Below the pieces are notes generated by a model. The model did not search any database, was not told the origin of the DNA, and worked only from the letters and a program-made list of their open reading frames with translations. Below are positions 17,255 through 31,920 of a stretch of 40,397 nucleotides of DNA, piece after piece; position 1 is the stretch's first letter, and each line of letters opens with the position of its first letter. Source of the DNA: Planctomycetaceae bacterium. Lineage in GTDB: Bacteria; Planctomycetota; Planctomycetia; Planctomycetales; Planctomycetaceae. The position numbers and the translations under genes are program-made. The DNA is taken from the NCBI GenBank assembly GCA_900299185.1, contig OMIV01000379.1, forward strand, positions 1 to 40,397, written 5' to 3'.

Positions 17255-18304
17255 TTACTTCCCGCGTTCGGCCTTCTGAACCGCCACATGCCAACCCGAG
17301 AAGTCATCGGACTTAATCGGCAGCGGCATCTTCGCTCCAAGCTTCTCAAAGCTCTGTCGCACGCTTTGGCTCTTCGTCCATTCGGCGTCAGTCAAAGAGC
17401 CATCCTTGTCGAGATCCAGTCGCCCGAAGATGTACTTAGCCATGCGGCCTTCGGCGCTATCGGGTTCAACCTTCGCGGGTTCCAAAACTTTGTTACCTGC
17501 GACGCTCACAGTGGGTGCAGTCGAAGACGCTGAAACAGGCTTGCTAACAATCTGAGTTTCAGTCCGAGTGGAAGCTGATCCCGTTGCTGGCGCAGCGGAC
17601 TTCGTTGCCCCTGAAGACGCAGTCGTCGTCGAAGTCGATGCTGGCGTCTTCGGAGGTGCCGGTGCGATCTTTGCGCCGAGAATCTCTTTCGCGGTCAACA
17701 GACCGTCGCCGTTCTTATCAGCAGCTTGAAACTCGGCGAGTTTCGCGCGATCCCACTCATAGAGTCCGATTTGCCCATCGCCGTTGGTATCGAGTGCTCG
17801 AAAGGCGCGCGGCAGATCAACTGTGACGCGCTGCTTGGGCACAGGCTTCTTCGTCGACGATGACGACGGACGCGATGATGAGGACGACGCATTATTCGAA
17901 ACCGGAGTCGGCGCGTTGGAGGAACTGACGCGTGATTCGGCAGCGGCACGTTCGCGTTCACGCTCCCGTTCTCTTTCCCGCTCGCGCTCTCTTTCGCGAT
18001 CACGATCATCGCGGCCTCGCTCTTCGTCACGGCGACGTCGGAAGTCTTCCATCATCTTGGGGGCGAGTTGCTCGAAGTCCTTCAGAGTGATGCCGCGATC
18101 TATGTTGGGATGCTTGCTCAACGCATCCTTAACCGGCCCCGGCGCGTTCTCGATCTCCTTGCGATCAATCACACCGTTACGGTCGCGGTCGATAAAGCCA
18201 AAGAACCGCTCGGGCGAGGGTCCATCAGATTGAGCCATCACAGCCTTCGTCAGCAACATGGCCGCTGTAGCTGCGAGAGTTATTCGAGAGAGTCGAAACA
18301 TCAT
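17255..18304 (-). CDS. Secreted EF-hand protein with Arg-Glu repeat tract
   Basis: A 349-residue protein with a signal peptide (hydrophobic run ending AVMAQ). It has four EF-hand loops: about 39-50 (DRDRNGVIDRKE), 172-183 (DTNGDGQIGLYE), 196-207 (DKNGDGLLTAKE) and 297-308 (DLDKDGSLTDAE). All have Gly at loop position 6 and Glu at 12, so calcium binding is very likely. Between the first and second pair lie an alternating Arg-Glu tract (about 104-119) and Ser/Thr/Pro/Ala-rich linkers. It lies 95 bases after the last T2SS gene on the same strand and may be cotranscribed. ATG 18304 is chosen over a TTG three codons upstream. The function is unknown; a secreted calcium-binding or matrix protein is my inference. 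Confidence 0.88.
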   Translation of the reverse strand: MMFRLSRITLAATAAMLLTKAVMAQSDGPSPERFFGFIDRDRNGVIDRKEIENAPGPVKDALSKHPNIDRGITLKDFEQLAPKMMEDFRRRRDEERGRDDRDRERERERERERERERERAAAESRVSSSNAPTPVSNNASSSSSRPSSSSTKKPVPKQRVTVDLPRAFRALDTNGDGQIGLYEWDRAKLAEFQAADKNGDGLLTAKEILGAKIAPAPPKTPASTSTTTASSGATKSAAPATGSASTRTETQIVSKPVSASSTAPTVSVAGNKVLEPAKVEPDSAEGRMAKYIFGRLDLDKDGSLTDAEWTKSQSVRQSFEKLGAKMPLPIKSDDFSGWHVAVQKAERGK

Positions 18305-18399
18305 CGCATCCAATCATTGTTTCGGTGCGGAGTGGTTTAGTCGGCTTATGAGCGTTGCAGTGCAACAAGTATTCCACAGAGTTTACATCCCACTGCCTA

Positions 18400-19890
18400 C
18401 TATGACTTTGATCCAGCCTTAGCTGGCTTGTCCCCTTCCGGCTTCTTCATGTTGACGATCAACTCGAAGAGTAGCGGGAAGTCGCTATCGCCTTCTTTGG
18501 GCTTCAGAGCCTTGGGTTCAATTTCGATAAACGGTTGCTTGAGAAACTCGGCTCGCAGTCCTTCGGCATCAATTCGTTCTTTAACTCGACCATAGGCCGC
18601 CAGTGTGCCACGAATCGTTTTGACTGTGCCGTTCGACGCATTCAATCGAGTCAGGTACTTGCGATCGGTTCCATCCATCGTGACCGCCAAATCATGAGTT
18701 TGATCGAGCCAATTGACTCCCGAATTCGCCCACTCATCAATGCGATGGATGATCGCGACTTTGGGTTCAAGCTGCTTATTGAGGTCCTGCTGATCTTTGA
18801 TCGCAGAATTCGTCGAAGCGACTTCGTTCTTCACGTCGGCAATCTTCATCGAGCGGAACGTGAAGATGCCGATGATGGCAATCGCGACAGCAGCGGCGAT
18901 CGCGCCGTACTTGATTCGCGAGTAATCCTTCTTCACCACCGGACGTCGCGGATTCAAGAAGTCGACCGAATGAGCTGTCTCGCGACTGAACCCAACCAAC
19001 TGACCGATCGGACCTGCGAAGGCCGAATGCTCGGTACTGCCAACGGTGCCTCGAACTTCGACTCCATGCGCGGTTAAGGGATCGAGCCGATCGACCTCGC
19101 ACCCAAAGCGTTCACGCAATGCGTTGCCCAGTTCCACATCCTCTTTCGCGCCACCGACCAACCAAATGCGAGCGAACTTACCTTCCGGCAATCGCTTGCT
19201 GTTGGCGACTGACGAGCGGCTGATTTCAGCCAGGATCGACGAGCAACCTTGTTCGGCATGCTCTTGCACAGTCTGAGTCGAATGCGAGAAGTACAAGTGC
19301 CCGTTACCGACGACCGACATCTCGACGCGGTTGCCATGACGTGCAACGACCAATGCCAAGTCCGCAGCAACTTTGGACGCTGCCGTCTCCGCCGCGAAGA
19401 CCAGCTCTGCAGTCGCGATCGACGAAACTCCAACTGAGACGACTTCCAACCCCGCGATGACAGCCGCGCCGTACAGCCGAGCGATTCGCTCTTGTGGCAC
19501 CGTCACCAGCAACGCATCTCGTCCGGCAAAGTCCGTTCGTTGCGGCAACGGCAAGTAGTCGAGAGCTACTTGGTCAAGCGGCACCGTCGACTTACTGGCA
19601 GCTTGAAAGCGAACGATCGTCGGCAACTCTTCGTCATTGCCCGGCGGCAACTCCAAGTGGCGAACCACGACCTCTTCGCGAGGTAGCACCACCATGACCT
19701 TGCTGGTCGAAATACCGGATTGCTGAAGGACTCGCTTAAGCCACTCGCCGGTCTCTAGAGGTGATGTCAACACGCCATCGGGAACGGTCGCGGCCAGGGT
19801 CTTGAGGACTCGAACCTGTCCGTTCGAGACATCCGCCAGCACGCCGCACACTCGATGCGGTTCCAGGTCAATTGAGAGGTATTCAGCCAT
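18400..19890 (-). CDS. gspL: GspL-like (PilM-PilN fusion type) T2SS inner-membrane platform protein
   Basis: A 496-residue bitopic membrane protein. Residues 1-300 are an actin-like cytoplasmic domain of PilM/GspL type (MAEYLSIDLE start, VMVVLPREEVVVRHLELPP, and a WLVGGAKED nucleotide-site segment). FLNPRRP near 311 is the motif that opens PilN-like sequences. A transmembrane helix follows at about 328-348. The remainder is a periplasmic coiled/ferredoxin-like domain. In T2SS, GspL recruits the ATPase GspE to the inner membrane. It follows gspK after 168 bases and is the last clear T2SS gene of the operon; no gspM is found downstream. Motifs point to GspL/PilM, and the operon context supports the T2SS role. 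Confidence 0.85.
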   Translation of the reverse strand: MAEYLSIDLEPHRVCGVLADVSNGQVRVLKTLAATVPDGVLTSPLETGEWLKRVLQQSGISTSKVMVVLPREEVVVRHLELPPGNDEELPTIVRFQAASKSTVPLDQVALDYLPLPQRTDFAGRDALLVTVPQERIARLYGAAVIAGLEVVSVGVSSIATAELVFAAETAASKVAADLALVVARHGNRVEMSVVGNGHLYFSHSTQTVQEHAEQGCSSILAEISRSSVANSKRLPEGKFARIWLVGGAKEDVELGNALRERFGCEVDRLDPLTAHGVEVRGTVGSTEHSAFAGPIGQLVGFSRETAHSVDFLNPRRPVVKKDYSRIKYGAIAAAVAIAIIGIFTFRSMKIADVKNEVASTNSAIKDQQDLNKQLEPKVAIIHRIDEWANSGVNWLDQTHDLAVTMDGTDRKYLTRLNASNGTVKTIRGTLAAYGRVKERIDAEGLRAEFLKQPFIEIEPKALKPKEGDSDFPLLFELIVNMKKPEGDKPAKAGSKS

Positions 19891-20058: not shown

Positions 20059-21960
20059 TTACGGCTGATTGCCATTCGACTGATTGCCGGTCAGCAGATC
20101 CGATGGGTAGCCACGTCCCAGATCCGTTAGATCGCGGACACTGAGAATTTTTGACGGCTTCTTGGTCGCATCAATCACCACTTCCAACCGCGTGAACCCG
20201 CCACCTTGCTGGAAGTAGCCAACGACCTGGGCTCGATACACCGACCCGTGCGACGTCAGGTACTTATCCAATTTTGACATCGTCGGAAGATCAACGATTC
20301 CCTGCATAACGAGCCAACCCGTATTGGACCGCGCTTTGATCTCTTCGGGGATGGCATTGCCGTCAGCCCCAATCACCGACGACTTCACGATCGCGTCCGC
20401 AATCTCTTCCGTCATGTTCGGAAGACCGAGCAGCACTTCATGCCGAGCTTGCCCCACATTGATACGTCCTTGGATCTCGGCTTCACGTCGCGTCGTCAGT
20501 CGATCCATCAAGATCGGCAGGTACTCGCCCATCGTCTTCGGGTCGTCGGTCCACGGACTCTGCAGCACGGTGTCGCGACCATCGACCTTCGTAGCGACCT
20601 CCACGCCGATGAGGTCATAAATGGAACCGAGCTCGTACTTCGAGCCTTCTCGTAGATCGATGCCGCCGCGCGTCACCGCCCCCTGAATGCCGCCGGATAG
20701 GGCATTGCCCAGTCTTTGCACTCCCGTCGCCAATTGGCTTTGAGTTGGCTGTTGAGTCGAACTCGACGAGTTGTTCGAAGACGTGTTTCCCGACTGAGTG
20801 TTGCTGGAATTGTTGCTACTTGTCCCTGTGCGACTCGCTGTGGCATTCGAGGTGTTGTTGCTGGAGTTGTTTGAGTTCGATGAGTTACTGGAGTTCGACG
20901 AGTTATTGCCGGTCGAAGAATTACCGCCTGTTGTCCCCGTTCGAGTATTGCCACCGCGAGTGTTCCCGGTGTTCGACGCAGTCGCACCTGTTGTCGTCGT
21001 GCCTTGAGTGCCGTTCTGCTGAGCCGCATTCGGATCTTGGCGAGGACCGTTCGCTCGCAACGCAATCACGAACCGTGCGATGTTCTCATCGAACTCTTCT
21101 TCGAGCTTGTCGTAGAGGTCGGTCAATAGCCCGTCATTGATGTTGATCTTCGTTGCGTTCTTCGAGTCCAAATTGGACTCGCGACTGTCGATCGTCAGGA
21201 ACGACTGCCACCCCAGTTGCAGATTGCCGTCGCCGTTGTCGAACGGCGGAGATGCATCGCCATCGTCCTCGTTGGGATCGAGCAGTCCGTTGCGATTGGC
21301 GTCTTCCCCATAGAGCAAGTCCGGCGTCACACCAGCGACTTGCAGCAATTCATCGAGCGACTTGAGACCGCCATTCGCAGACTTGTAAGGCGGCGACTGT
21401 GATTCGTAGTACTCGGACTCCACGCCAAACTCGCGCGGGACATCGTCTTCATCAAGCCAGTCCAAGATGGCATCGGCGATGTCCTCGGTCATGTTCGGCA
21501 GATACATCAAGATGGTGCGTGTCTGCGTCTCATCCAGCCCGTAGCCCAAGATGGAGTTGAGATTGATCTTGGACGATTCGTCGACGAGTCCAAATCGAAT
21601 TGCTCCGGCCTTCGGGTCTGTCTCGATCGGAGCAATCACGCTGAACATGCCCCGTCCGCGAGCCGTGTCGCCCGATCGAATCGTGACGGCTCGGAAGCGA
21701 TCAGGGTTGTGATAGGTGTTGCTGTCGTCGGTTGATTCAGGATTGGCGATCATCGCCGCGACAAGTTCCACACCTGAATCAGCGAACGCTCGACTTTCCG
21801 CCTGCCGGCCAAACATCGAAGTGGCTTCAACCTCGGAAACCATCATCTCAGAAAACGTATAAGCCCCCAGCGTCAGCACGGCGACAACAACGAGCACCAA
21901 CAACAAGATCGAACCTTGTCGTGGCGAAGCCTGCCGAGTGTTTGTAATCGCGCGTTGCAT
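20059..21960 (-). CDS. gspK: Minor pseudopilin GspK with low-complexity insert and EF-hand-like loop
   Basis: A 633-residue GspK, roughly twice the usual length. The N terminus is a pseudopilin leader, G16|SILLLVLVVVAVLTLGAYTF, with no Glu at +5, as is typical for GspK, which caps the pseudopilus tip. Two helix-hairpin-type repeats are visible (LPNMTEDIADAILDW near 154 and LPNMTEEIADAIV in the C-terminal half), matching the GspK alpha domain. Residues 220-231 (DANRNGLLDPNE) form a canonical EF-hand loop. Residues about 309-410 are a Ser/Thr/Asn/Gly linker that inflates the protein. It follows gspJ after 179 bases that contain a hairpin. Identity is secure; the insert is unusual. Confidence 0.92.
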   Translation of the reverse strand: MQRAITNTRQASPRQGSILLLVLVVVAVLTLGAYTFSEMMVSEVEATSMFGRQAESRAFADSGVELVAAMIANPESTDDSNTYHNPDRFRAVTIRSGDTARGRGMFSVIAPIETDPKAGAIRFGLVDESSKINLNSILGYGLDETQTRTILMYLPNMTEDIADAILDWLDEDDVPREFGVESEYYESQSPPYKSANGGLKSLDELLQVAGVTPDLLYGEDANRNGLLDPNEDDGDASPPFDNGDGNLQLGWQSFLTIDSRESNLDSKNATKININDGLLTDLYDKLEEEFDENIARFVIALRANGPRQDPNAAQQNGTQGTTTTGATASNTGNTRGGNTRTGTTGGNSSTGNNSSNSSNSSNSNNSSNNTSNATASRTGTSSNNSSNTQSGNTSSNNSSSSTQQPTQSQLATGVQRLGNALSGGIQGAVTRGGIDLREGSKYELGSIYDLIGVEVATKVDGRDTVLQSPWTDDPKTMGEYLPILMDRLTTRREAEIQGRINVGQARHEVLLGLPNMTEEIADAIVKSSVIGADGNAIPEEIKARSNTGWLVMQGIVDLPTMSKLDKYLTSHGSVYRAQVVGYFQQGGGFTRLEVVIDATKKPSKILSVRDLTDLGRGYPSDLLTGNQSNGNQP

Positions 21961-22139: not shown

Positions 22140-23117
22140 TTACAGGCTCATCCCCTCGAATGAATTCGCGGCAGGCAGAGTGATGACAATCCGAAAGGTG
22201 TCCGTCATCTCGCTGGCCTGACGCCTCACGAACGACGACATCGAATCACTTGGACTCTTGAAGGTGATGGCCACTCCCACGGCATTGGGTAGTCGACCTT
22301 CGACCTCGCTGTCCCATGCCGTCAGCCACTCAGCTCCATCGAAGTAAGAGAACGAGATCGACTCAATCTCCGGAGCAAGCTGCTCGGTCTTGGAAGCTGC
22401 TGTCACGAGATCGGTGTTGGTTCCAGCCATCGACAGTGACAAGCGATCTGCCGACGTGCGAGTCAGTCCGGATGCTCCACTCGAGGTCCCAAACATCATC
22501 GCGATGCTGCTGGTTGACCCGCCAAGAAAGTACGAGACCGACTTTAGGTCGCTCGACGAATACGGATTACCTGCAACGTCAGCAGTGCCTCGACTGCGTC
22601 GATCTGGCCGGAGCACGTGCATCACAATCGAGTCCGCATCGCCAAAGATACCCAAGGCACTACCGGAGTAAGCGTCGGACAACAGCATCGGCTCGGTCGG
22701 CGTTTGAGAAGTCGATTGAGTCCCGGAAGTCGAGCCAGATTGATTCGTGTTTTGATTGCCGGTTTGTCCCGTTCCGCCGCTGGTCCCAGTGCTCTGAGTA
22801 TTCCCCGACTGCTGAGTACCAGTGCCCGAAGTTGTGCTAGTTCCAGAGTTCTCAGAAGAAGACGTCGAAGACGAGTTGCTCGTCGATGCTGCGGCGGGCT
22901 TCTTGCGATAGATCGTCGACCGAATGTCGTGCGACAAACGATTGAAGATCGACCGAGCAATTTGAGAGCGAGTGACTTCTTCTTGCCCCGACAACGAGAA
23001 CCGCCAATGGAGATCCAGCGCCGTAAACAGCACGCCCAGCAAGACCACCGTCAAAGCCATCGACAGTAATAATTCCAACAGCGTGAATGCGCCGCGAGTT
23101 CGGAGAGGTGCTTTCAT
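22140..23117 (-). CDS. gspJ: Minor pseudopilin GspJ with low-complexity insert
   Basis: A 325-residue pseudopilin in the gspJ position. The leader is RTRGA|FTLLELLLSMALTVVLL with Glu at +5; the residue at -1 is Ala, not the usual Gly. The globular part has the GspJ-like ending SFSYFDGAEWLTAWDSE and AVGVAITF. Residues about 75-142 are a Ser/Thr/Gly/Asn/Gln linker absent from textbook GspJ. Its ATG overlaps the gspI stop by four bases (23114-23117), so translation is probably coupled. In T2SS, GspJ joins GspI and GspK in the tip complex. Confidence 0.88.
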   Translation of the reverse strand: MKAPLRTRGAFTLLELLLSMALTVVLLGVLFTALDLHWRFSLSGQEEVTRSQIARSIFNRLSHDIRSTIYRKKPAAASTSNSSSTSSSENSGTSTTSGTGTQQSGNTQSTGTSGGTGQTGNQNTNQSGSTSGTQSTSQTPTEPMLLSDAYSGSALGIFGDADSIVMHVLRPDRRSRGTADVAGNPYSSSDLKSVSYFLGGSTSSIAMMFGTSSGASGLTRTSADRLSLSMAGTNTDLVTAASKTEQLAPEIESISFSYFDGAEWLTAWDSEVEGRLPNAVGVAITFKSPSDSMSSFVRRQASEMTDTFRIVITLPAANSFEGMSL

Positions 23118-23572
23118 GGCTGGGTCTCCGTGCCGGTGTCAGTCACCTGTTGGAACACCAACGGATCACGGATCAATCGCGAGATCGAATAGCTGGTCGC
23201 CGAGAGATCGCTCTGTTTGAAGTACTTCACAGTGACCGTCACGAGCAGCAAGTCAGCATGGGGACCGGGCGTTGAAGCCAGAGTCCACGTCCAATTCGCA
23301 TCGTCCTCAAACGGTTGATCGTTGATGGCCTGCAACGGCTCAACGGCTGCCGCGACTTCATTGAGCTTCGATTCACATCTCAAGATCGCATGAGTCAGCA
23401 ATCGTGCCTGCACCGCGGCCGACATGCCGTTGTTCGACAATTGGCTCAGGGCTGCCAGCGCTCCAATGAAGATGCCCAGTGCGATCACCACTTCCATCAA
23501 CGAGATCCCGGCTCGTCGAAGCATCCGCTTCGGAGCAGGCTGAATTCGTTGATGGTGGCGGATCTGTTTCAT
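23114..23572 (-). CDS. gspI: Minor pseudopilin GspI
   Basis: A 152-residue pseudopilin with leader AG22|ISLMEVVIALGIFIGALAAL, Gly at -1 and Glu at +5. The rest is short and beta-rich, with WTWTLASTPG and LLLVTVTVKY, as in GspI, the first member of the tip complex. It overlaps gspJ by four bases. ATG 23572 gives a 22-residue leader; Met17 is a possible shorter start. Assignment rests on the leader, size and position between gspH and gspJ. Confidence 0.87.
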   Translation of the reverse strand: MKQIRHHQRIQPAPKRMLRRAGISLMEVVIALGIFIGALAALSQLSNNGMSAAVQARLLTHAILRCESKLNEVAAAVEPLQAINDQPFEDDANWTWTLASTPGPHADLLLVTVTVKYFKQSDLSATSYSISRLIRDPLVFQQVTDTGTETQP

Positions 23573-23697: not shown

Positions 23698-24336
23698 TCA
23701 ATTTGTCGTCGAGACTGTCGCTGCTCCGGTGATGTCTCGAACTCGAATACGTCGAGTCGTCGCAGCTTCGTCCACAATGTCGAACTCGGCGTTCGAGGAT
23801 GTCCCATCTGAATAGAACAAGATCGGCGCCGACCAAGAGGTCTGACTGAATTCACTCGGTAGCCCGGTGAGAAGTTCGGGATTCAATGCTTCTGCAGGGC
23901 TCTCGTTGACAGACGAGAAATACACGCCCTCAGGTAGTTCGCCGTGCGACTGACCGCTCGCCGTCACCGTCTTCCCACCCTCAGCCGCGCCATTCGAATT
24001 CTCATACGGCACCCGCATGTAACGGCGGCCATTCGGCTCGAAACGAAATTGAAAAACGATGTCTTGATCGAGAGAAAGAATGCGAGTTCCAGCCACCATC
24101 TCGCGTACCGCCTCGGCAGCTTCCTTCACTCGATACTCGCGCTGCAGTCGCATCACTGGCGACCAACCCAACGAGGTGATCAGCACAATGATGCTCATCG
24201 CAATCAGCATCTCGAACAGCGTGTATCCCGCTGCTGTTGGCAACCCGTCGGCTTTCAAAGCCTGATCTCGACGGCGCACATCGAGCCCCACGCGTGTTTC
24301 CGCGCCAAGAGCAGCGACGATGTTCCGTCGGTTCAT
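23698..24336 (-). CDS. gspH: Minor pseudopilin GspH
   Basis: A 212-residue pseudopilin in the gspH position. The leader is TAAG37|YTLFEMLIAMSIIVLITSLGW, with Gly at -1 and Glu at +5. The remainder is GspH-like: VVREMVAG-type alpha helix (AAEAVREMVAGTRILSLDQ), then a beta-rich part ending with PILFYSDGTSSNAEFDI, which matches the conserved C-terminal strand of GspH/FimT. Even from ATG 24336 the leader is long (37 residues). An in-frame ATG at 24417 would lengthen it further and would place an intercistronic hairpin within the ribosome binding region, so I prefer 24336. It follows gspG and precedes gspI by 125 bases. Confidence 0.85.
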   Translation of the reverse strand: MNRRNIVAALGAETRVGLDVRRRDQALKADGLPTAAGYTLFEMLIAMSIIVLITSLGWSPVMRLQREYRVKEAAEAVREMVAGTRILSLDQDIVFQFRFEPNGRRYMRVPYENSNGAAEGGKTVTASGQSHGELPEGVYFSSVNESPAEALNPELLTGLPSEFSQTSWSAPILFYSDGTSSNAEFDIVDEAATTRRIRVRDITGAATVSTTN

Positions 24337-24426
24337 CACGATGCACGTTACCTTGCAGGAACTCCTGGCCGATTCGGATGTCAGCAACTTGCAGCCAACT
24401 CCAAAGTCATCCGCCATACAAACTCA

Positions 24427-24524: not shown

Positions 24525-25001
24525 CTACAATTTCTGATTCCAGTTGGTGATGTCGTCGTCGGTTCCATCTTGCTTATCAGGACCGTTCGACCAAATCGCA
24601 GGCTTGCCACCCGGCGTAGCGCGATTGCCGCTCGCGGGATACTCGTAACTCAACGGGTTGCCCCAAGCGTCGCTCGGCACGTCTTCCAAGTAAGGCTTCA
24701 AATCGCGGCCGTTCTTGTCGGTCCCTGGATTCAGCAACGTTCCAACGACGGTGTCCGCACCGCCTTGAGGAAACTCACCATCATGATCGACGGCGAAGTA
24801 CTTGATCGCGTCTTCGAAGCCTTTGATCTTGGCTTGAGTCGCCTTGATCTGAGCGTCTTGCTGACGGCCAAGCAGTTGAGGTACGGCGAGCGCAGCGATC
24901 AAGCCAATGATCGCCAGCACGATCAACATTTCGAGCAGCGTGAAGGCCGCACGATGTATGAGCAGAGAAGCCGGACGCACGGGGCGAGAAATACGACGCA
25001 T
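24525..25001 (-). CDS. gspG: Major pseudopilin GspG
   Basis: A 158-residue major pseudopilin, the subunit that builds the T2SS pseudopilus. Leader HRAA19|FTLLEMLIVLAIIGLIAALAVPQLLG has Glu at +5 but Ala at -1. The globular part is classical GspG: FPQGG, LKPYLEDVPSDAWGNPLSYEYPASG, and near the C terminus GPDKQDGTDDDITNW, the acidic loop that binds calcium in known GspG structures. ATG 25001 is chosen because AGGAG lies ten bases upstream, the best ribosome binding site in the operon; in-frame upstream ATGs exist at 25103 and 25061. It starts 106 bases after the gspF stop. Confidence 0.95.
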   Translation of the reverse strand: MRRISRPVRPASLLIHRAAFTLLEMLIVLAIIGLIAALAVPQLLGRQQDAQIKATQAKIKGFEDAIKYFAVDHDGEFPQGGADTVVGTLLNPGTDKNGRDLKPYLEDVPSDAWGNPLSYEYPASGNRATPGGKPAIWSNGPDKQDGTDDDITNWNQKL

Positions 25002-25107
25002 GAATGCAACACTCCTGAGGATAGATGAGGGGTTCGAGGCAGGATGAATTATTGATCTCATGATTGGGCGATCTCGACAGCCATGAAAGTCTGCCTGCCC
25101 CATGAGC

Positions 25108-26316
25108 TTACAAGATCGACGACGACTGCAAGATCGGCAGCAACAAACCGGCCATGACGAACATCACAATGCCGCCCATGACCACCAGCATGATTGGCTC
25201 GATCATGCGAACGAACAAATCCAAGTTGCGAGTCGTTCGAGCTTCCATGCTATCAGCGATCTCAACCAAGACTTGTTCCAGGTTATTAGCTTCCTCAGCC
25301 ACCGCGATCATCTCGACGGTCTCCTCTGGAAACTCACCACAAGCCCGTAACGGATGAGCCAACGTCTTACCGGCAGAAACATTCTCACTGGCGCGAGCAA
25401 TGGCTCCCGACAACACACGATTGCCCATCGCATCTTTGCCGATCCGCAGGGAATTCAGAATCGGCACACCATTCTTTAGCAGGGTACCCAAGATGCGGCA
25501 GAACCGAGCGATCGCCAACGTGCGATAGATCCGCCCAATCAGAGGCGTCTTGAGACGTGCTTTATCGAATGCCAATCGACCTTCTTCGCTCACACCGTAA
25601 AAGCTCATGGCGACGCCGGTGACCGCACTGAGAATCAACAAGATCAGCCCATAGTTGCCGATGAAGTGACTGATCCCAACCACGGCCATTGTCACAAACG
25701 GCAGCTCGCCCTTGTCTTCGAACTTTTGAAAGATCGGTTCGAACTTAGGCACGAACCAGACCATGAGTGCCGTAACAACTGTTGCACCAGCCAGCATCAA
25801 GAACAGCGGGTAAGTCATCGCTCCGAGCACGCGGCTCTTCATGTCCTCTTGATGTTCGGTGAAGGTCGCGATCCGCTTCAGGACGTCTTCCATGAAGCTG
25901 CCTTCTTCACCAGCTCGAATCATGCTGATGGTCAAATCTCCGAAGGCTCGCGGATGATGTCTCATCGCTTCAGACAATCGAGTTCCGTCCGAGACTTCGG
26001 CTCGTACATCAGCCAACACCAGCTTGAGCGACTGATTGCGTGATTGCCGTTCCAGCAACTCTAGCGATCGAAGCAGCGGTACTCCCGATCGCAGCAAGTC
26101 AGCCAATTGCGAGTAGAACGTCGCAAGCTCGCGATTACCGACGCGGCGACCTCGAAAGCGTTCTTGCTTCTTGGCTGCTTCAGCCAATTCGATCTTCAGC
26201 GGAAACAACTGGCGCAGCGCGAGCGTTGAAGCCGCCGCTGACTCGTTGTCCGCAGACAACAAGCCCGTGACTTGCTCGCCGCTCATCGACTTGGCTGTGT
26301 ACTGAAAATCGGGCAT
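25108..26316 (-). CDS. gspF: T2SS inner-membrane platform protein GspF
   Basis: A 402-residue polytopic membrane protein, the platform that couples the GspE motor to pseudopilus growth. It begins MPDFQYTAKSMSGE, typical of GspF, and has two T2SSF domains with the repeated pattern ELATFYSQLADLLRSGVPLLRSLE and IARFCRILGTLLKNGVPILNSL. Three hydrophobic segments are visible, after MTYPLFLM, at NYGLILLILSAV and at MIEPIMLVVMGG. ATG 26316 gives the normal start; the frame is open to 26370. It follows gspE after 93 bases. Confidence 0.95.
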   Translation of the reverse strand: MPDFQYTAKSMSGEQVTGLLSADNESAAASTLALRQLFPLKIELAEAAKKQERFRGRRVGNRELATFYSQLADLLRSGVPLLRSLELLERQSRNQSLKLVLADVRAEVSDGTRLSEAMRHHPRAFGDLTISMIRAGEEGSFMEDVLKRIATFTEHQEDMKSRVLGAMTYPLFLMLAGATVVTALMVWFVPKFEPIFQKFEDKGELPFVTMAVVGISHFIGNYGLILLILSAVTGVAMSFYGVSEEGRLAFDKARLKTPLIGRIYRTLAIARFCRILGTLLKNGVPILNSLRIGKDAMGNRVLSGAIARASENVSAGKTLAHPLRACGEFPEETVEMIAVAEEANNLEQVLVEIADSMEARTTRNLDLFVRMIEPIMLVVMGGIVMFVMAGLLLPILQSSSIL

Positions 26317-26409
26317 TTGTTTCTTGTCCGTCGTCTGTGATCCGCCGTTGGTCGTCTCTCGCAGCCTCATTGGCCTTCATGGACGATGCCGCTGAACGCT
26401 CACGAGATC

Positions 26410-28095
26410 CTAAACGACATCACCTTTCGTAATTCGCACAACGTCTTCGACGCTGGTCGTGCCATCCAACACTCGCAGCCAACCACATTGCCGCAGAGTC
26501 AACATGCCGTTGTCGACACCATGCGCTCGAATACGAGTTGAACTGGCTCGTTCGACGCACAGCTCTCTCGTTCGTTCATCGGAATGAAGCAGCTCAAAGA
26601 CACCGATGCGTCCCGAGTAACCAGTCTCGCCGCATTCTCGACAACCAACCGGAACACACATTTGACTGAGGTCGGCCTTCGGGAAGTCTTTGGGAAGTTC
26701 GTCGAGCGTGGGTACGTAATTTCGTTTACAGTTCTTACAAAGACGACGCACAAGTCGTTGAGCCATGACAGATTCAACCGTGCTCGCGACGAGGAACGGT
26801 TCAATCCCCATATCGACCAAACGCGTAAACGCAGAGGCCGCGTCGTTCGTGTGCAATGTGCTGAAGACGAGGTGCCCTGTTAGCGACGATTGCACCGCGA
26901 CTTCGGCCGTTTCTTTATCGCGAATTTCACCGATCAGGATGACGTCGGGGTCATGACGCAGAATGGCTCGCAGTCCCGATCCGAAGGTCAATCCGATGCG
27001 GCTATGAACCTGGATCTGACTGATGCCTTCGAGCTGATATTCCACTGGGTCTTCAACCGTAATGATCTTCACAGTCGGATCGCGAATCTCAGCCAACGCG
27101 CTGTAGAGCGTGGTCGTCTTACCGCTTCCTGTGGGACCAGTCACAAGCAGAATGCCATGCGGCAACTTGATGAGTTCTTGGAACTCGTCGTAGATCTGCT
27201 TGGGCATACCCATGCCCGACAGATTGAAGACCATCCGCCCCTTATCGAGCAGACGCAGCACGATGCCTTCACCGTGCAACATCGGGATGATCGAAACGCG
27301 GACGTCGATGTCTCTGCCCGCGACTTTCAATTCGATGCGGCCGTCTTGAGGCAGACGTTTCTCGGCGATGTTCAACCGAGACATGATCTTCAAACGAGTG
27401 ACTATGGCCGCCGAGAACTGATTGATCTCCGGCGGAACCGGCTGCACGCGAAGCATGCCGTCCACTCGGTAGCGAATCGTGAGACCACGTTCGCCCGGCT
27501 CGATATGCACGTCGCTCGATTTCTGTTCGAGCGCTTCGAGCAACAACTGATTCACCAGCCGAATGACCGACGCTTGCTGAGCCATCTCAGCGAGTTCACC
27601 GTCAGCTCGCGCAGCTTCAGCCAAGTACGTGTCGTCGTCGTCCGTCTTCTGTTTGACGAGTTCCGTAATCGTGTCGCCGCCAACACCCAAACTTTGCTTA
27701 ATCAGCCGTTCGAGATCAGCTCTTCGCGCAAGGACCGGATCCAATCGCAAACCCGTCAACGAGCTGAGTTCATCCAGTGCTTCGAGATCGAACGGATCGC
27801 TGATGGCGACCGTCACGCGACCATTGGTCGCTCGACTCAACGGCAAGACGCTGTGACGAAAGATGGAAGACGTGGGAAAGAGTTCGAGCAACTCGCGATT
27901 GCCCTTCTCCTCTTTCAGGTCAACGAATTGCATTCCCAATTCGTCGGCGAAAGCTTTGAGCGCATCTTCTTCAGTGACGAAGCCCAGATCGACAACAGCT
28001 TGATCAAGCCGCTTGCCGTTCATTTGGCGACGCGACTGCTCGCACTGCTCGCGAGTGATCAAGCCGCGTCGAAGTAATACCTCGCCAATATCCAT
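26410..28095 (-). CDS. gspE: T2SS assembly ATPase GspE
   Basis: A 561-residue cytoplasmic hexameric ATPase that powers the T2SS. N-terminal GspE/MshEN-type domains (residues 1-140) start [17 protein letters not shown]. The motor has DVHIEP, Walker [10 protein letters not shown] (320-328), the Asp box VEDPVEYQ, Walker [11 protein letters not shown] (384-393) and the His box [13 protein letters not shown] four-Cys zinc site is present: C453-x2-C456 and C485-x2-C488. All catalytic motifs are intact. Related PilB ATPases share these motifs; the surrounding gspD-L order decides for GspE. It lies 150 bases after the gspD-like gene. Confidence 0.95.
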
Positions 28096-28245: not shown

Positions 28246-31200
28246 TCAACGGCCCCGACCACCACCGCCTGGGAAGCCGCCGCCCGGAAACCCACCACCG
28301 GGGAATCCACCGCCACCGTTCCCGCCGCGCCCGCCGCCACCACCTTGTTGCATCTGAATCAACTGGCGGATTTCATCGGGGTTCGGCTGCTGAGGTTGCG
28401 GAGTCGAAGGCCGACTCTCACCGCCACCACTGCCAGATCCACCTCGGCTGGAAGACACTTTGATCTTGGGCATCACGGCCCCTAACGCGCTCTTGAGCTG
28501 GCTCGTCTTCATGTGCTCCAATGAAACGACTCGAACGGTCCGTTTGGAATCGAAAGCTGCTTGATCGATCTGCCCAACGAGCGCTTCAACTTGCTTAAAG
28601 AGCGGCTCGCTGGAAGCGACGACCAATCGATTCGATCGAGCATCGATACCGATCGTCATCTTCACGGTTTGAGCGGCACCCGCGCCACCTCGACCGCCGC
28701 GACCACCACCACCTTGAGCGCCCATTAACGCCGCCAAAGGATTGGCTTGCTGAGCACCACCTCGCTCACCTTCAAGCTCTTCACGGAAGATATCTCGCAC
28801 GAGTTCGACCACTTCCGAAAGCTCGGCATGCTTAACTTCGATGTAGCGTGGAGTGCGTTTGCTGAGTTGCTCTGGAGTCTCAGAGGCATCCAAAACTCGC
28901 AGCATGTCTTCAACCTCATTGACCATGTGGCTAGGACCGCTGACGAACAGCGAATTCGTGCGAGTATCGGGAATGATACGAAGCGTCTGCGGGCCATTGC
29001 TGATTGAGTTCAACCCAGTCATATCCATCAAGCCGCGTCCCATCGACGAGATGCCTGAGGTCAGCTCTCCGAGCATCCCACTGCTCGACCCACCGGACGT
29101 TGAAACGCTGCTTGTTGGGAAGAGCCGCTCCAAAACCGTCGCAGATTCCAGAGCGTCTGCGGACCGCAGATAGAAGACGGTCCACTCTGTTTTAGGAGGC
29201 AGCGCTTTCGAGACCGAAGCAATGACGTCTTCGAGTTGATCAAGCGCAACCGGGTCTTCTGACATCACCACCAAGTTTCCATTCCGTACCGTGATCAGAA
29301 TCGGAATGTTCGGGTCAGCTTTCCGCTCCTCAGTCTTGGCGGCTCCCGCATCAGCAGCGTCGGTAGCTTGGAACAGCTTTTCAAACTGAGCGTTGACTTC
29401 CGCTTTGCTGGCAGGCTGATCCTGTGTTTGAGCCACGGCGTCATCAGACACAAACCGCTCCTGAACAACTTCGGTGTAGCTCGCGAGTTGGCTGCTTGCC
29501 CGACGATCGAGACTGGCCGACTTGCCATTTTCGAGCAAACCTCGCGGCTTCGCAGGCTCGGCGTCGTTCGTCGCAGCGGGCTTGTTGTTATCGACCGGAC
29601 GAGCATCTGGAGCTGGTGCTCCCAACACCTTTCTCAGCGACTGAGTCCGGCTGCTTTCGGTTGCCGATTCACCCTCGCCCTTCTTAGACGCTGAAGGAGT
29701 CACCGTGCGAATTGGATTGCGTCCCTTTCCGCCCCAAGCTTGCTCTAGCATCTTCAAAAACTCTTCAGGATTGCGGCCCCCGAGAGGAATCGTCCGCACG
29801 TTACCTTGCTGACTTCCAAATCCCCCAGAGGCAGGATCAAGTTGAGCAAGCAACAACTTGATCTGATTCACTTGGTCGCCCGTGCCTTTGACAATCAGCC
29901 CTGTCCCTAGCGGGTGAGGTTGCACAACCGGAGCCGAATTACCTTCCGAAATAAAGAGCGACTGAATTGAAGCAGTGGCTGTGTAAGCATCCATCCGACC
30001 GAGCGGGATGACCGCAACTTGAGTCGTCGTGCCGCCAGCACCATCCAGCTGTTTCAGCGTTTGCTCAATTTGCTGATGCATGGCCGCCGTCGCGCGAATG
30101 TGTATGCGTCGAGCTCGCCCATCCTCGTTCACAACAGTGCCGGGGAAAAGAACATTGAGTGTCTTCGTTACTTCCATTGGGTCAGCAGACTTGAGCTCGT
30201 AAACATGAAAGTACGGCTGCTTGCTACCACGCCCGGCTGTATCATTTCCAGTATCAACATCGACTGTCTTCAGAATCTCTTCGATCGTCTTCATATCTTC
30301 AGACTTGGCAGTCACCAACAGCGTATTAGTTCGCTCGTCGATAGTGACAGCGACGCGAAGATTGGGATCTTGATTCGGCGATCGAGAGGATCGACTGCTG
30401 CTCGACGATGACGAAGAACTCGAACGCGGATCTCCATTGAAGCCCGAGCCGGCACTCACATTCTCGATTCCTCGACGAGGCAGACCAAAGAGGTCGCGAA
30501 CGACGTTTTCAGCATCGATCGCATCAACATGCTTCAGCGCAAACTGCTTGAAGAGTTTGTCGCCAGGTTCAATGCTTAGGCTCGTAAGCAACTCATGAAT
30601 ACGACGTAAATTGCTACCGATATCAGTAATAATGAGTTTGTTCGCTCGATTGAGCGCTACAACTTTCCCCTGAGGCCCCAATAGTTCCTTCACTTCGTCA
30701 GCAGCATCGTGCGGCGTCATTCCCTCGATTGGGACGATGACCGTCATCAGTTCGTTGCGACCGCGAGATGGCATTTCCGCCAATGGAACAGTCGGGACGA
30801 GGTTTGGAGGAATCCCGTCATCAATGTTAATAACGACCAGAAATTCATCCCGGCGAACGAGGATATATCCCTTTTGAATGAGATACCCGTTGAGAACGTC
30901 CAACGCTTCTGCGGGCGTGTATTCACGCTCGTCGTAGTAATTGAAACTACCGGTTGGAACGTCGTTCAAATCCAGTGTCAGACCTGATGCATCGGCGAAA
31001 AGCTTGAGCACGTCGACCCAAGGCGCGAATCGGAAATTGAACGAGAGCTTGCTGAGCTTCTTCTTCTCGCCGTCTTTCCCGCCGAATGACAGAGTCGCAG
31101 GCTGGCCATCCCCATCTGTGGTTGAGGGATTACTGCCGACTGCCGCCGCATCAACATTGCGAGGACGACCACTGGTTCCACCGCCGCGACGAGTATCGTT

Positions 31201-31920
31201 TCCACCAGGCTGCGTTTGCGGTCCACCGCCCCCAGGACGGCCACCACCGAAATTATCTTGGAAGGTAAAACTACTTCCTCGCTTCTCTTCGATGGCCGAA
31301 CGTTGCTGAGGATTAAGTACCTTTTCCGCATCCTTGTCGCGCTTCAACCGCAACTCTTCCAGCTTGGCTGTACGCTCCTCAGTCGACAAATCTCGGTTTC
31401 GGAAGATCTCATCCCGAGCCTTGTCATAATCGTCGTTGGCCTTGCGAACCGCCTCTTTCTGGCTGTCCGACAAATTGAGCTGCTTTTGATAATCCTCATT
31501 TTCCAGCGCTCGTGACCCCTGACGCTGAAACGATAATTGCTGCAGACGATTCCACTGCTCTGCCTTAACGATTTTCTTCAACGCGTTCTCTTGGAAATTC
31601 TGCATCTCCGTGCCGATCGCACGTCGCTCTTCGTCGTCCTTGGCTTGCCTCATCCGATCAAAGAAATCTCGGAACTGGTTGTTGTCGCGCAGGCCATCCT
31701 GAAATGCAGTGATCTGCTTAATTTGATCTTCCGAGAGCTTCAGTTCTTGCTGAACGTCGTCGCGACGAAGCATGAATGTCGGACTATCGAAGCCGCCTCC
31801 ACCGCGACCTCGTCCTCCAAAACCACCCGGCGGGCCAAACTGAGCGACAGCCACATCCGCAGTGCAAGCAGCAAAGGAGAGTGACAGCATCAAAGCGAGA
31901 GGTCGCAATGTGATCCGCAT
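28246..31920 (-). CDS. GspD-position secretin-like protein with repeated N domains and no visible pore domain
   Basis: A 1224-residue secreted protein in the gspD position. The signal peptide (MRITLRPLALMLSLSFAA and cleavage near AVA|Q) is followed by Gly-rich sequence and a helical LSEDQ/LSDSQ domain (about 50-220) reminiscent of Spy/LTXXQ folds. Residues about 291-365 look like an N0/STN domain (FAPWVDVLKLFADASGLTL). Then come about seven N1-type (NolW) repeats near 392-450, 455-554, 570-626, 633-696, 706-903 (with a ~130-residue insert), 913-1011 and 1023-1121, plus half a repeat. The end is Gly-rich with GGGFP repeats. I see no secretin beta-barrel (no VPLLGDIP-like lip segment). ATG 31920 has AAGG seven bases upstream. 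It may act as a periplasmic channel extension for a pore encoded elsewhere; that is inference. Confidence 0.88.
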   Translation of the reverse strand: MRITLRPLALMLSLSFAACTADVAVAQFGPPGGFGGRGRGGGGFDSPTFMLRRDDVQQELKLSEDQIKQITAFQDGLRDNNQFRDFFDRMRQAKDDEERRAIGTEMQNFQENALKKIVKAEQWNRLQQLSFQRQGSRALENEDYQKQLNLSDSQKEAVRKANDDYDKARDEIFRNRDLSTEERTAKLEELRLKRDKDAEKVLNPQQRSAIEEKRGSSFTFQDNFGGGRPGGGGPQTQPGGNDTRRGGGTSGRPRNVDAAAVGSNPSTTDGDGQPATLSFGGKDGEKKKLSKLSFNFRFAPWVDVLKLFADASGLTLDLNDVPTGSFNYYDEREYTPAEALDVLNGYLIQKGYILVRRDEFLVVINIDDGIPPNLVPTVPLAEMPSRGRNELMTVIVPIEGMTPHDAADEVKELLGPQGKVVALNRANKLIITDIGSNLRRIHELLTSLSIEPGDKLFKQFALKHVDAIDAENVVRDLFGLPRRGIENVSAGSGFNGDPRSSSSSSSSSSRSSRSPNQDPNLRVAVTIDERTNTLLVTAKSEDMKTIEEILKTVDVDTGNDTAGRGSKQPYFHVYELKSADPMEVTKTLNVLFPGTVVNEDGRARRIHIRATAAMHQQIEQTLKQLDGAGGTTTQVAVIPLGRMDAYTATASIQSLFISEGNSAPVVQPHPLGTGLIVKGTGDQVNQIKLLLAQLDPASGGFGSQQGNVRTIPLGGRNPEEFLKMLEQAWGGKGRNPIRTVTPSASKKGEGESATESSRTQSLRKVLGAPAPDARPVDNNKPAATNDAEPAKPRGLLENGKSASLDRRASSQLASYTEVVQERFVSDDAVAQTQDQPASKAEVNAQFEKLFQATDAADAGAAKTEERKADPNIPILITVRNGNLVVMSEDPVALDQLEDVIASVSKALPPKTEWTVFYLRSADALESATVLERLFPTSSVSTSGGSSSGMLGELTSGISSMGRGLMDMTGLNSISNGPQTLRIIPDTRTNSLFVSGPSHMVNEVEDMLRVLDASETPEQLSKRTPRYIEVKHAELSEVVELVRDIFREELEGERGGAQQANPLAALMGAQGGGGRGGRGGAGAAQTVKMTIGIDARSNRLVVASSEPLFKQVEALVGQIDQAAFDSKRTVRVVSLEHMKTSQLKSALGAVMPKIKVSSSRGGSGSGGGESRPSTPQPQQPNPDEIRQLIQMQQGGGGGRGGNGGGGFPGGGFPGGGFPGGGGRGR

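Follow-up and report, generated by a model that had tools for sequence, protein, structure and literature searches.

A poreless GspD-like protein at the head of a planctomycete type II secretion operon: probable half of a split, lengthened secretin

The window analysed here is a 40,397-nucleotide stretch of DNA from a Planctomycetaceae bacterium (GenBank assembly GCA_900299185.1, contig OMIV01000379.1, forward strand), in which the first gene of a type II secretion operon encodes a protein with the N domains of the secretin GspD and no pore domain. This frame (28246-31920, minus strand; 1224 amino acids counted from its ATG) is referred to below as the window protein. It probably represents the N-terminal half, on the inner-membrane side, of a GspD that has been split and lengthened, and the two halves would stack into a longer conduit. 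The strongest evidence, drawn from sequence comparison, is the fusion of poreless and pore parts into single proteins in relatives. The domain content, the absence of the pore, the partner gene, the operon linkage and the fusion with its order of parts can all be read from the sequences, and from these we infer that both gene products are built into a single channel.

Domain content of the window protein

Pfam places six stretches of Secretin_N (PF03958) in the window protein (E-value, E, 8.2e-56), and a Foldseek search with its AlphaFold model returns XcpQ, PulD and GspD chains as the top matches. The model was built on a 45-row alignment and has a mean predicted local distance difference test (pLDDT) score of 69.4, with values mostly of 80-95 in the folded blocks and below 50 in the linkers (370 of 1199 residues are below 50). 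Seven beta-alpha-beta-beta-alpha units are seen in the model, at residues 391-449, 455-553, 570-626, 633-694, 708-740 plus 874-906, 911-1011 and 1024-1125, with boundaries that we assigned from its secondary structure. The fifth unit is interrupted by an insert of about 133 residues, mostly with pLDDT below 50, and our own N1 profile, which overlooks this split unit, counts six N1 domains. The N0 domain superimposes on that of GspD (PDB 4jtm) with Z 10.3 and a root-mean-square deviation (rmsd) of 2.1 for 78 aligned residues. The best structural chain for the whole model is PulD (PDB 6hcg), which covers residues 268-602 with Z 13.6 and an rmsd of 11.9 over 290 residues, indicating agreement domain by domain and not as a rigid whole. 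The initial annotation of this DNA, made by eye, had proposed N0 and about seven N1 repeats in the gspD position, and this description is borne out: N0 and seven N1-type folds are present in the model, and gspE-K lie downstream.

That annotation had also placed Gly-rich GGGFP repeats where the beta-barrel should be, and here too the later searches agree. Pfam finds no PF00263 pore in the window protein at E ≤ 1, the C-terminal third included, and a custom pore profile run with filters off finds none at E ≤ 100. The model has no barrel and ends in a disordered Gly-rich tail. A pore hidden in the C-terminal third was therefore rejected as a candidate. The same profile was run on 49 frames of 1100-1450 amino acids from related loci, for 44 of which the window protein is the best match; six have a pore-profile domain with E below 10, and the best E is 0.086 (L102, residues 496-555). 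These frames come from a set of 62 related loci in records of Planctomyces, Gimesia, Schlesneria, Thalassoglobus, Planctomicrobium, Alienimonas, Planctomycetota and one Kuenenia. Compared with the feature set of GspD, the window protein has N0, N1-type domains and linkage to gspE-K; it lacks PF00263, and its score of 197 bits with the GspD model of NCBIfam (TIGR02517) is below the cut-off of 351.35. The longest open frame starts at a TTG, 19 codons 5′ of the ATG.

The pore gene and its linkage to the poreless gene

A search of the window genome for a separate PF00263 protein, as the initial annotation had suggested, finds the domain in six places, two of them partial matches. One is a protein of 1284 amino acids on contig C380 (L030:11872-15726), with six PF03958 stretches and a PF00263 match of E 1.5e-39, which scores 351.0 bits with TIGR02517 and thus lies almost exactly at the GspD cut-off. 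It is the ortholog of the gene that closes the operon in relatives; we call pore proteins of this kind type 1. The window genome also encodes a second poreless paralog (C152, L031:4808-8014; 1068 amino acids, with N0 and five N1 by profile), and a second poreless paralog is likewise present in genome G024 (L076).

In relatives, the two genes can stand at the two ends of one operon. On a single strand, G174 (L150) carries the poreless gene, gspE, gspF, a 273-amino-acid frame, gspG, gspH, a 143-amino-acid frame, gspJ, gspK, a PilM gene, a 564-amino-acid frame and the pore gene. The order in G130 (L152), also on one strand, is the poreless gene, gspE, gspF, a 243-amino-acid frame, gspJ, gspK, a PilM gene, a 465-amino-acid frame and the pore gene, with gspG and gspH unmatched there.

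Linkage was then counted in 101 genomes of the family of the window gene, which is Planctomycetaceae-like; one row per gene per genome was picked by hand among the matches listed, some of them partial, and all counts in this paragraph have that scope. A poreless row was picked in 82 of the 101 genomes, a pore row in 82, and both in 77. The two genes share a contig in 25 of these 77. In 18 of those 25, both have the same orientation and the pore gene comes 10.4-11.8 kb after the poreless gene, with a median of 11.3 kb. The 18 include G121, where the pore is divided between two contigs; the piece counted is the one that shares a contig with the poreless gene. Five genomes with a poreless row alone (G206, G147, G194, G169 and G196) contain partial pore pieces. 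Fourteen genomes have no picked row: nine contain a pore of a second type, described below (G132, G135, G137, G145, G151, G180, G184, G199 and G200), three contain type-1 pore pieces (G125, G185 and G203), and two give weak matches only (G167 and G202).

Fused forms, complementary domains and ladder length

Class-wide searches for the two parts (59 genomes each) find both in one frame in the sister family f79. All six f79 frames examined (G261, G295, G269, G272, G284 and G257; 2114-2425 amino acids) are fused, each with one N0 near the N-terminus, then 8-12 N1 by our own profile, then the pore. In G269 (L157), residues 166-658 and 650-972 match residues 311-793 and 850-1168 of the window protein, and residues 1137-2030 match residues 387-1208 of the C380 pore protein; G272 and G257 (L158 and L172) have the same order of parts. 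A fused form of 3240 amino acids with 29 N1 (own profile) is found in G262 of family f80.

The domain sets of the two proteins are complementary in other families with separate genes. In each of six genomes, three from family f67 and one each from f83, f81 and f68, the N0 profile finds N0 on the poreless protein and none on the pore protein. In the five f67, f83 and f81 genomes, the pore gene has the same orientation as the poreless gene and follows it at 14-19 kb; in f68 (G252), about 2.5 Mb separate the two genes. Four codons after a stop, the f81 pore frame opens with a signal-like stretch, so that the missing N0 is no mere truncation. A further set of pairs, type 2, occurs in some genomes of the window's own family; in the five examined, the poreless proteins are 2000-2690 amino acids long with N0 and 21-32 N1 (own profile), and the pore proteins are 1295-1317 amino acids long with 7-8 N1 and without N0 in five of five. 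In G157, gspE follows the type-2 poreless gene, and a stretch of 21.3 kb (2 kb of it left unread) also includes, in the same orientation, J-, K- and PilM-like genes and the pore gene; in G208, the pore gene is two frames ahead of the poreless gene. No such linkage of the type-2 genes was found in the other three genomes.

The order of parts in the fusions suggests a geometry, with N0 and the poreless rings at the inner membrane and the rings of the pore part, with the pore itself, at the outer membrane. In the proposed mechanism, the window protein would reach the periplasm by export, and its N0 and seven N1 would there build a stack of rings encircling the pseudopilus. The second gene, on C380 in this genome and last in the operon in a number of relatives, would supply further N1 rings and the PF00263 pore in the outer membrane. 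The two cylinders would then stack end to end, the poreless one towards the inner membrane, to give a conduit longer than a normal GspD. The extra length may serve the enlarged planctomycete periplasm, which is described as a feature of the phylum (PMC11958385). The initial annotation had offered, as one of two options, a pore encoded elsewhere and a protein that extends the periplasmic channel: this option is supported by the C380 gene, the linkage, the complementary domains and the fusions, with joint assembly of the two proteins as its presumed basis.

Fused proteins of two further families are far longer. In G111 (L149:2096-14737), a single frame of 4213 amino acids has one N0, 42 Secretin_N stretches by Pfam or 44 N1 by our own profile, and a pore (PF00263, E 4.5e-50). 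The 5073-amino-acid frame of G034 (L148:1308-16529) has one N0, 48 N1 (own profile) and a pore; by eye, it probably starts near residue 480, which would leave about 4600 amino acids. Both are at least three times longer than other pore frames among the matches listed. In a PF00263 survey of 118 genomes of the phylum, with the same scope, pore frames above 4000 amino acids occur in five (G111, G034, G002, G095 and G255), and the remaining pore frames are 398-1413 amino acids long. A 3259-amino-acid frame of G299 (f68; L171:741-10520) has N0, 36 N1 by our own profile or 18 Pfam stretches, and no pore match. These N1 counts vary because the choice of profile matters: our own profile, derived from these same families and refined on them by iteration, is less strict than that of Pfam, with 24 against 15 in the G157 giant and 12 against 12 in G269.

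Relatives in which a single, very long protein contains both parts suggest that the tube is lengthened by added rings. For the window pair, eight rings are predicted from the window protein and seven from its C380 partner, 15 in all. A broader proposal, to which we give an even chance, is that the length of the planctomycete conduit is set by the number of N1 rings, from 15 in the window pair through 29-41 in the five type-2 pairs to 45-49 in the fusions of 4213 and about 4600 amino acids, and that several families assemble two separately encoded cylinders, with a poreless ring stack docking beneath the channel.

In a tree built from the pore ends of 28 proteins, one clade (support 99/95) holds 17 of the 18 split pores, namely those of type 1, type 2, f67, f68 and f83. 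The f79 and f80 fused forms branch outside this clade, and the fused giants of f3 and f63 lie still more distant. A fused ancestor followed by fission would be the simplest reading of this tree, the root of which rests on long branches. If the fused form came first, the N0 of the type-1 pore may be a later gain or a retained copy.

Alternative readings, related secretins and operon context

Several observations weigh against a split, stacked secretin. The main weakness is that the C380 pore protein keeps an N0 of its own (E 1.4e-27, N0 profile), as do all three type-1 pores of the window's family that were tested, so that it could be a complete long secretin alone; for this reason, we claim that the window protein works like one half of a split secretin more firmly than we claim strict membership of that class. 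The pore gene is on a separate contig from the poreless gene, in an assembly of 383 contigs with an estimated contamination of 3.4%, and besides the pore, one prepilin-like frame on C380 alone resembles a protein of the window. With C380 nearly devoid of window-like frames, and the best match of the relatives' 564-amino-acid operon gene on yet another contig (C70), the operon seems to be dispersed in this genome. Among the matches listed for the family, the two genes are 0.39-7 Mb apart (linear distance) in seven of the 25 genomes that have them on one contig, and five genomes have a pore row without a poreless row: G164, G127 and G156 have no recognisable poreless-like piece, and G177 and G190 have a diverged poreless-like frame of 1245 amino acids and a fragment, respectively. 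No gspE is found within 1.5 kb in nine of 40 full poreless frames with room downstream. On the tree, the split f81 pore falls outside the main split clade, so the split label needs two changes, and 14 f78 genomes of the class sample have no full-length match to either part, so the split or fused arrangement is not class-wide.

The leading alternative is that the poreless protein acts separately in the periplasm as a scaffold or regulator of the type II system, which forms a ring of its own or contacts the assembly platform through N0 without stacking, and that the pore protein is a complete secretin. The pore's own N0, joined in the window genome by six N1, is consistent with this, as are the three genomes with a type-1 pore and no recognisable poreless gene, and the C152 paralog, near which no type II genes are seen among the frames compared. 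We nevertheless consider it unlikely, given that in f79 and f80 the two parts are fused head to tail and that the pores of the other split families examined have no N0. The second option of the initial annotation, a type II system that works without a classical outer-membrane secretin, is very improbable: PF00263 is unmatched on the entire window contig, but a genome without any pore is ruled out by the six places described above, one of them on the long multi-N1 ortholog of the operon-end pore gene, and the operon linkage and the fusions contradict it as well. It is just as hard to believe, even with 383 contigs, that the window gene is a broken or mis-assembled secretin gene whose pore was lost by truncation or frameshift, and a degenerate gene is ruled out by recurrence and by the ratio of nonsynonymous to synonymous substitution rates (dN/dS), since full poreless frames of 1103-1572 amino acids occur in 45 of the 62 related loci, the Gly/Arg-rich C-terminal end is kept in six of six aligned proteins, and dN/dS is 0.066 between the poreless genes of G069 and G048 (dS 0.21; clear purifying selection) and, in keeping with this, 0.050 between those of G265 and G293 (dS 1.3, near saturation).

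The split, lengthened GspD that we favour can be compared with known systems. Ordinary GspD has four N domains (PMC8134430); the window protein shares its N0 and N1-type folds and the position at the head of a gspE-K operon, but has no pore domain and seven N1-type domains instead of three. Split secretins as such are already known. RhcC1 (NolW) and RhcC2 of rhizobial type III secretion, and HrcIIC1 and HrcIIC2, supply N- and C-terminal secretin parts from separate genes (PMC3574062, PMC3973906), and resemble the window pair in being two genes of one system. RhcC1 and RhcC2 differ in belonging to type III and not type II, and the accessible text of these papers describes no lengthened N1 ladder. 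In mitochondrial GspD, Secretin_N domains are carried by the separate proteins GspDN1-GspDN3, with a contact between GspD and GspDN1 in yeast two-hybrid assays (PMC8134430). This is likewise a split GspD with Secretin_N on a separate protein, although the accessible text describes single or partial N domains on the GspDN proteins and no N0 in eukaryotes, whereas the window protein has N0 and a long ladder. Thermus thermophilus PilQ, described as having six rings and a length of 350 Å and as spanning most of a wide periplasm according to its authors (PMC5745081), resembles the window pair in its extra N domains, but is one protein with its own pore, in a type IV pilus, with six rings as opposed to 8 + 7.

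Among the papers listed, judged by their titles, the opening of their abstracts or selected passages, none describes split or ladder-type secretins in planctomycetes; the literature search covered few subscription papers and no preprints, and this is weak evidence of novelty. As far as these searches reach, what is new is a secretin split in a type II system of bacteria, combined with a long, variable N1 ladder, and fusions that reveal the order of parts. Secretins are usually pictured as one gene with few N rings, whereas in this class several families have long ladders alongside their type II genes, either within one protein or divided between two. Should the two halves stack, the number of rings would be a natural ruler for a secretion machine that spans an enlarged periplasm. 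Type II systems of this kind are easily overlooked in annotation, because the poreless gene scores below the GspD cut-off and the pore gene at it. Gene fission in a membrane machine can also be tested on them.

The features of the window gene and the genes downstream of it are collected in Table 1. The gspE, gspF, gspG and gspK genes follow the poreless gene on the same strand, and H, I and J are assigned by weaker matches and position. GspC (PF11356) has no match in the window genome, and the same profile does match Escherichia coli and Caulobacter among 14 controls; GspC may be replaced by a protein unlike it.

Table 1. Positions in the window of the poreless gene, its parts and the neighbouring type II genes
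Feature	Coordinates	Strand	Basis
Poreless secretin half, putative (helical domain, N0, seven N1, Gly-rich tail; 1224 amino acids)	28246..31920	-	
Signal-peptide-like N-terminus, residues 1-27	31840..31920	-	Judged by eye
Helical domain, residues ~47-214, weakly Spy/CpxP-like	31279..31782	-	Model and structure comparison
N0 domain, residues 292-365	30826..31047	-	N0 profile, model, structure comparison
Seven-N1 (Secretin_N) ladder, residues 391-1125	28546..30750	-	Pfam, own N1 profile, model
Linker within fifth N1, residues 741-873, mostly low confidence, one helix	29302..29700	-	Model
Gly-rich GGGFP tail where pore domain expected	28249..28353	-	Sequence, alignment, model
GspE ATPase	26410..28095	-	PF00437, E 7.5e-132
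GspF	25108..26370	-	PF00482, E 9.8e-57
GspG major pseudopilin	24525..25103	-	PF08334, E 2.9e-13
GspH-position minor pseudopilin	23698..24417	-	N_methyl, 19.6 bits (cut-off 21.2), and position
GspI-position minor pseudopilin	23114..23572	-	N_methyl, E 0.061 only, and position
GspJ-like	22140..23117	-	T2SSJ, E 3.1e-5, 24.7 bits (cut-off 28)
GspK	20059..21960	-	PF21687, E 1.4e-15
PilM/GspL-like	18400..19890	-	PF11104, E 4.5e-11

An EF-hand protein (17255-18313, minus strand) comes after the PilM-like gene in the window, and in 25 of the 35 related loci that extend far enough, a homologue of it is encoded divergently, no more than 2.5 kb upstream of the poreless gene. The initial annotation had also noted a helical LSEDQ-type domain at the front of the window protein. 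It is helical in the model and only weakly like Spy/CpxP: comparison with Spy/CpxP (PDB 5io8) gives Z 8.3 and an rmsd of 3.4 over 83 residues, where Z below about 13 may mean little in helical folds, the best Foldseek E is 2.1, and no Pfam family, LTXXQ included, matches at E ≤ 1. The same domain recurs in shorter frames of the window genome (C292:55131-55850 and C382:16925-17281) and in shorter frames of other genomes of the class.

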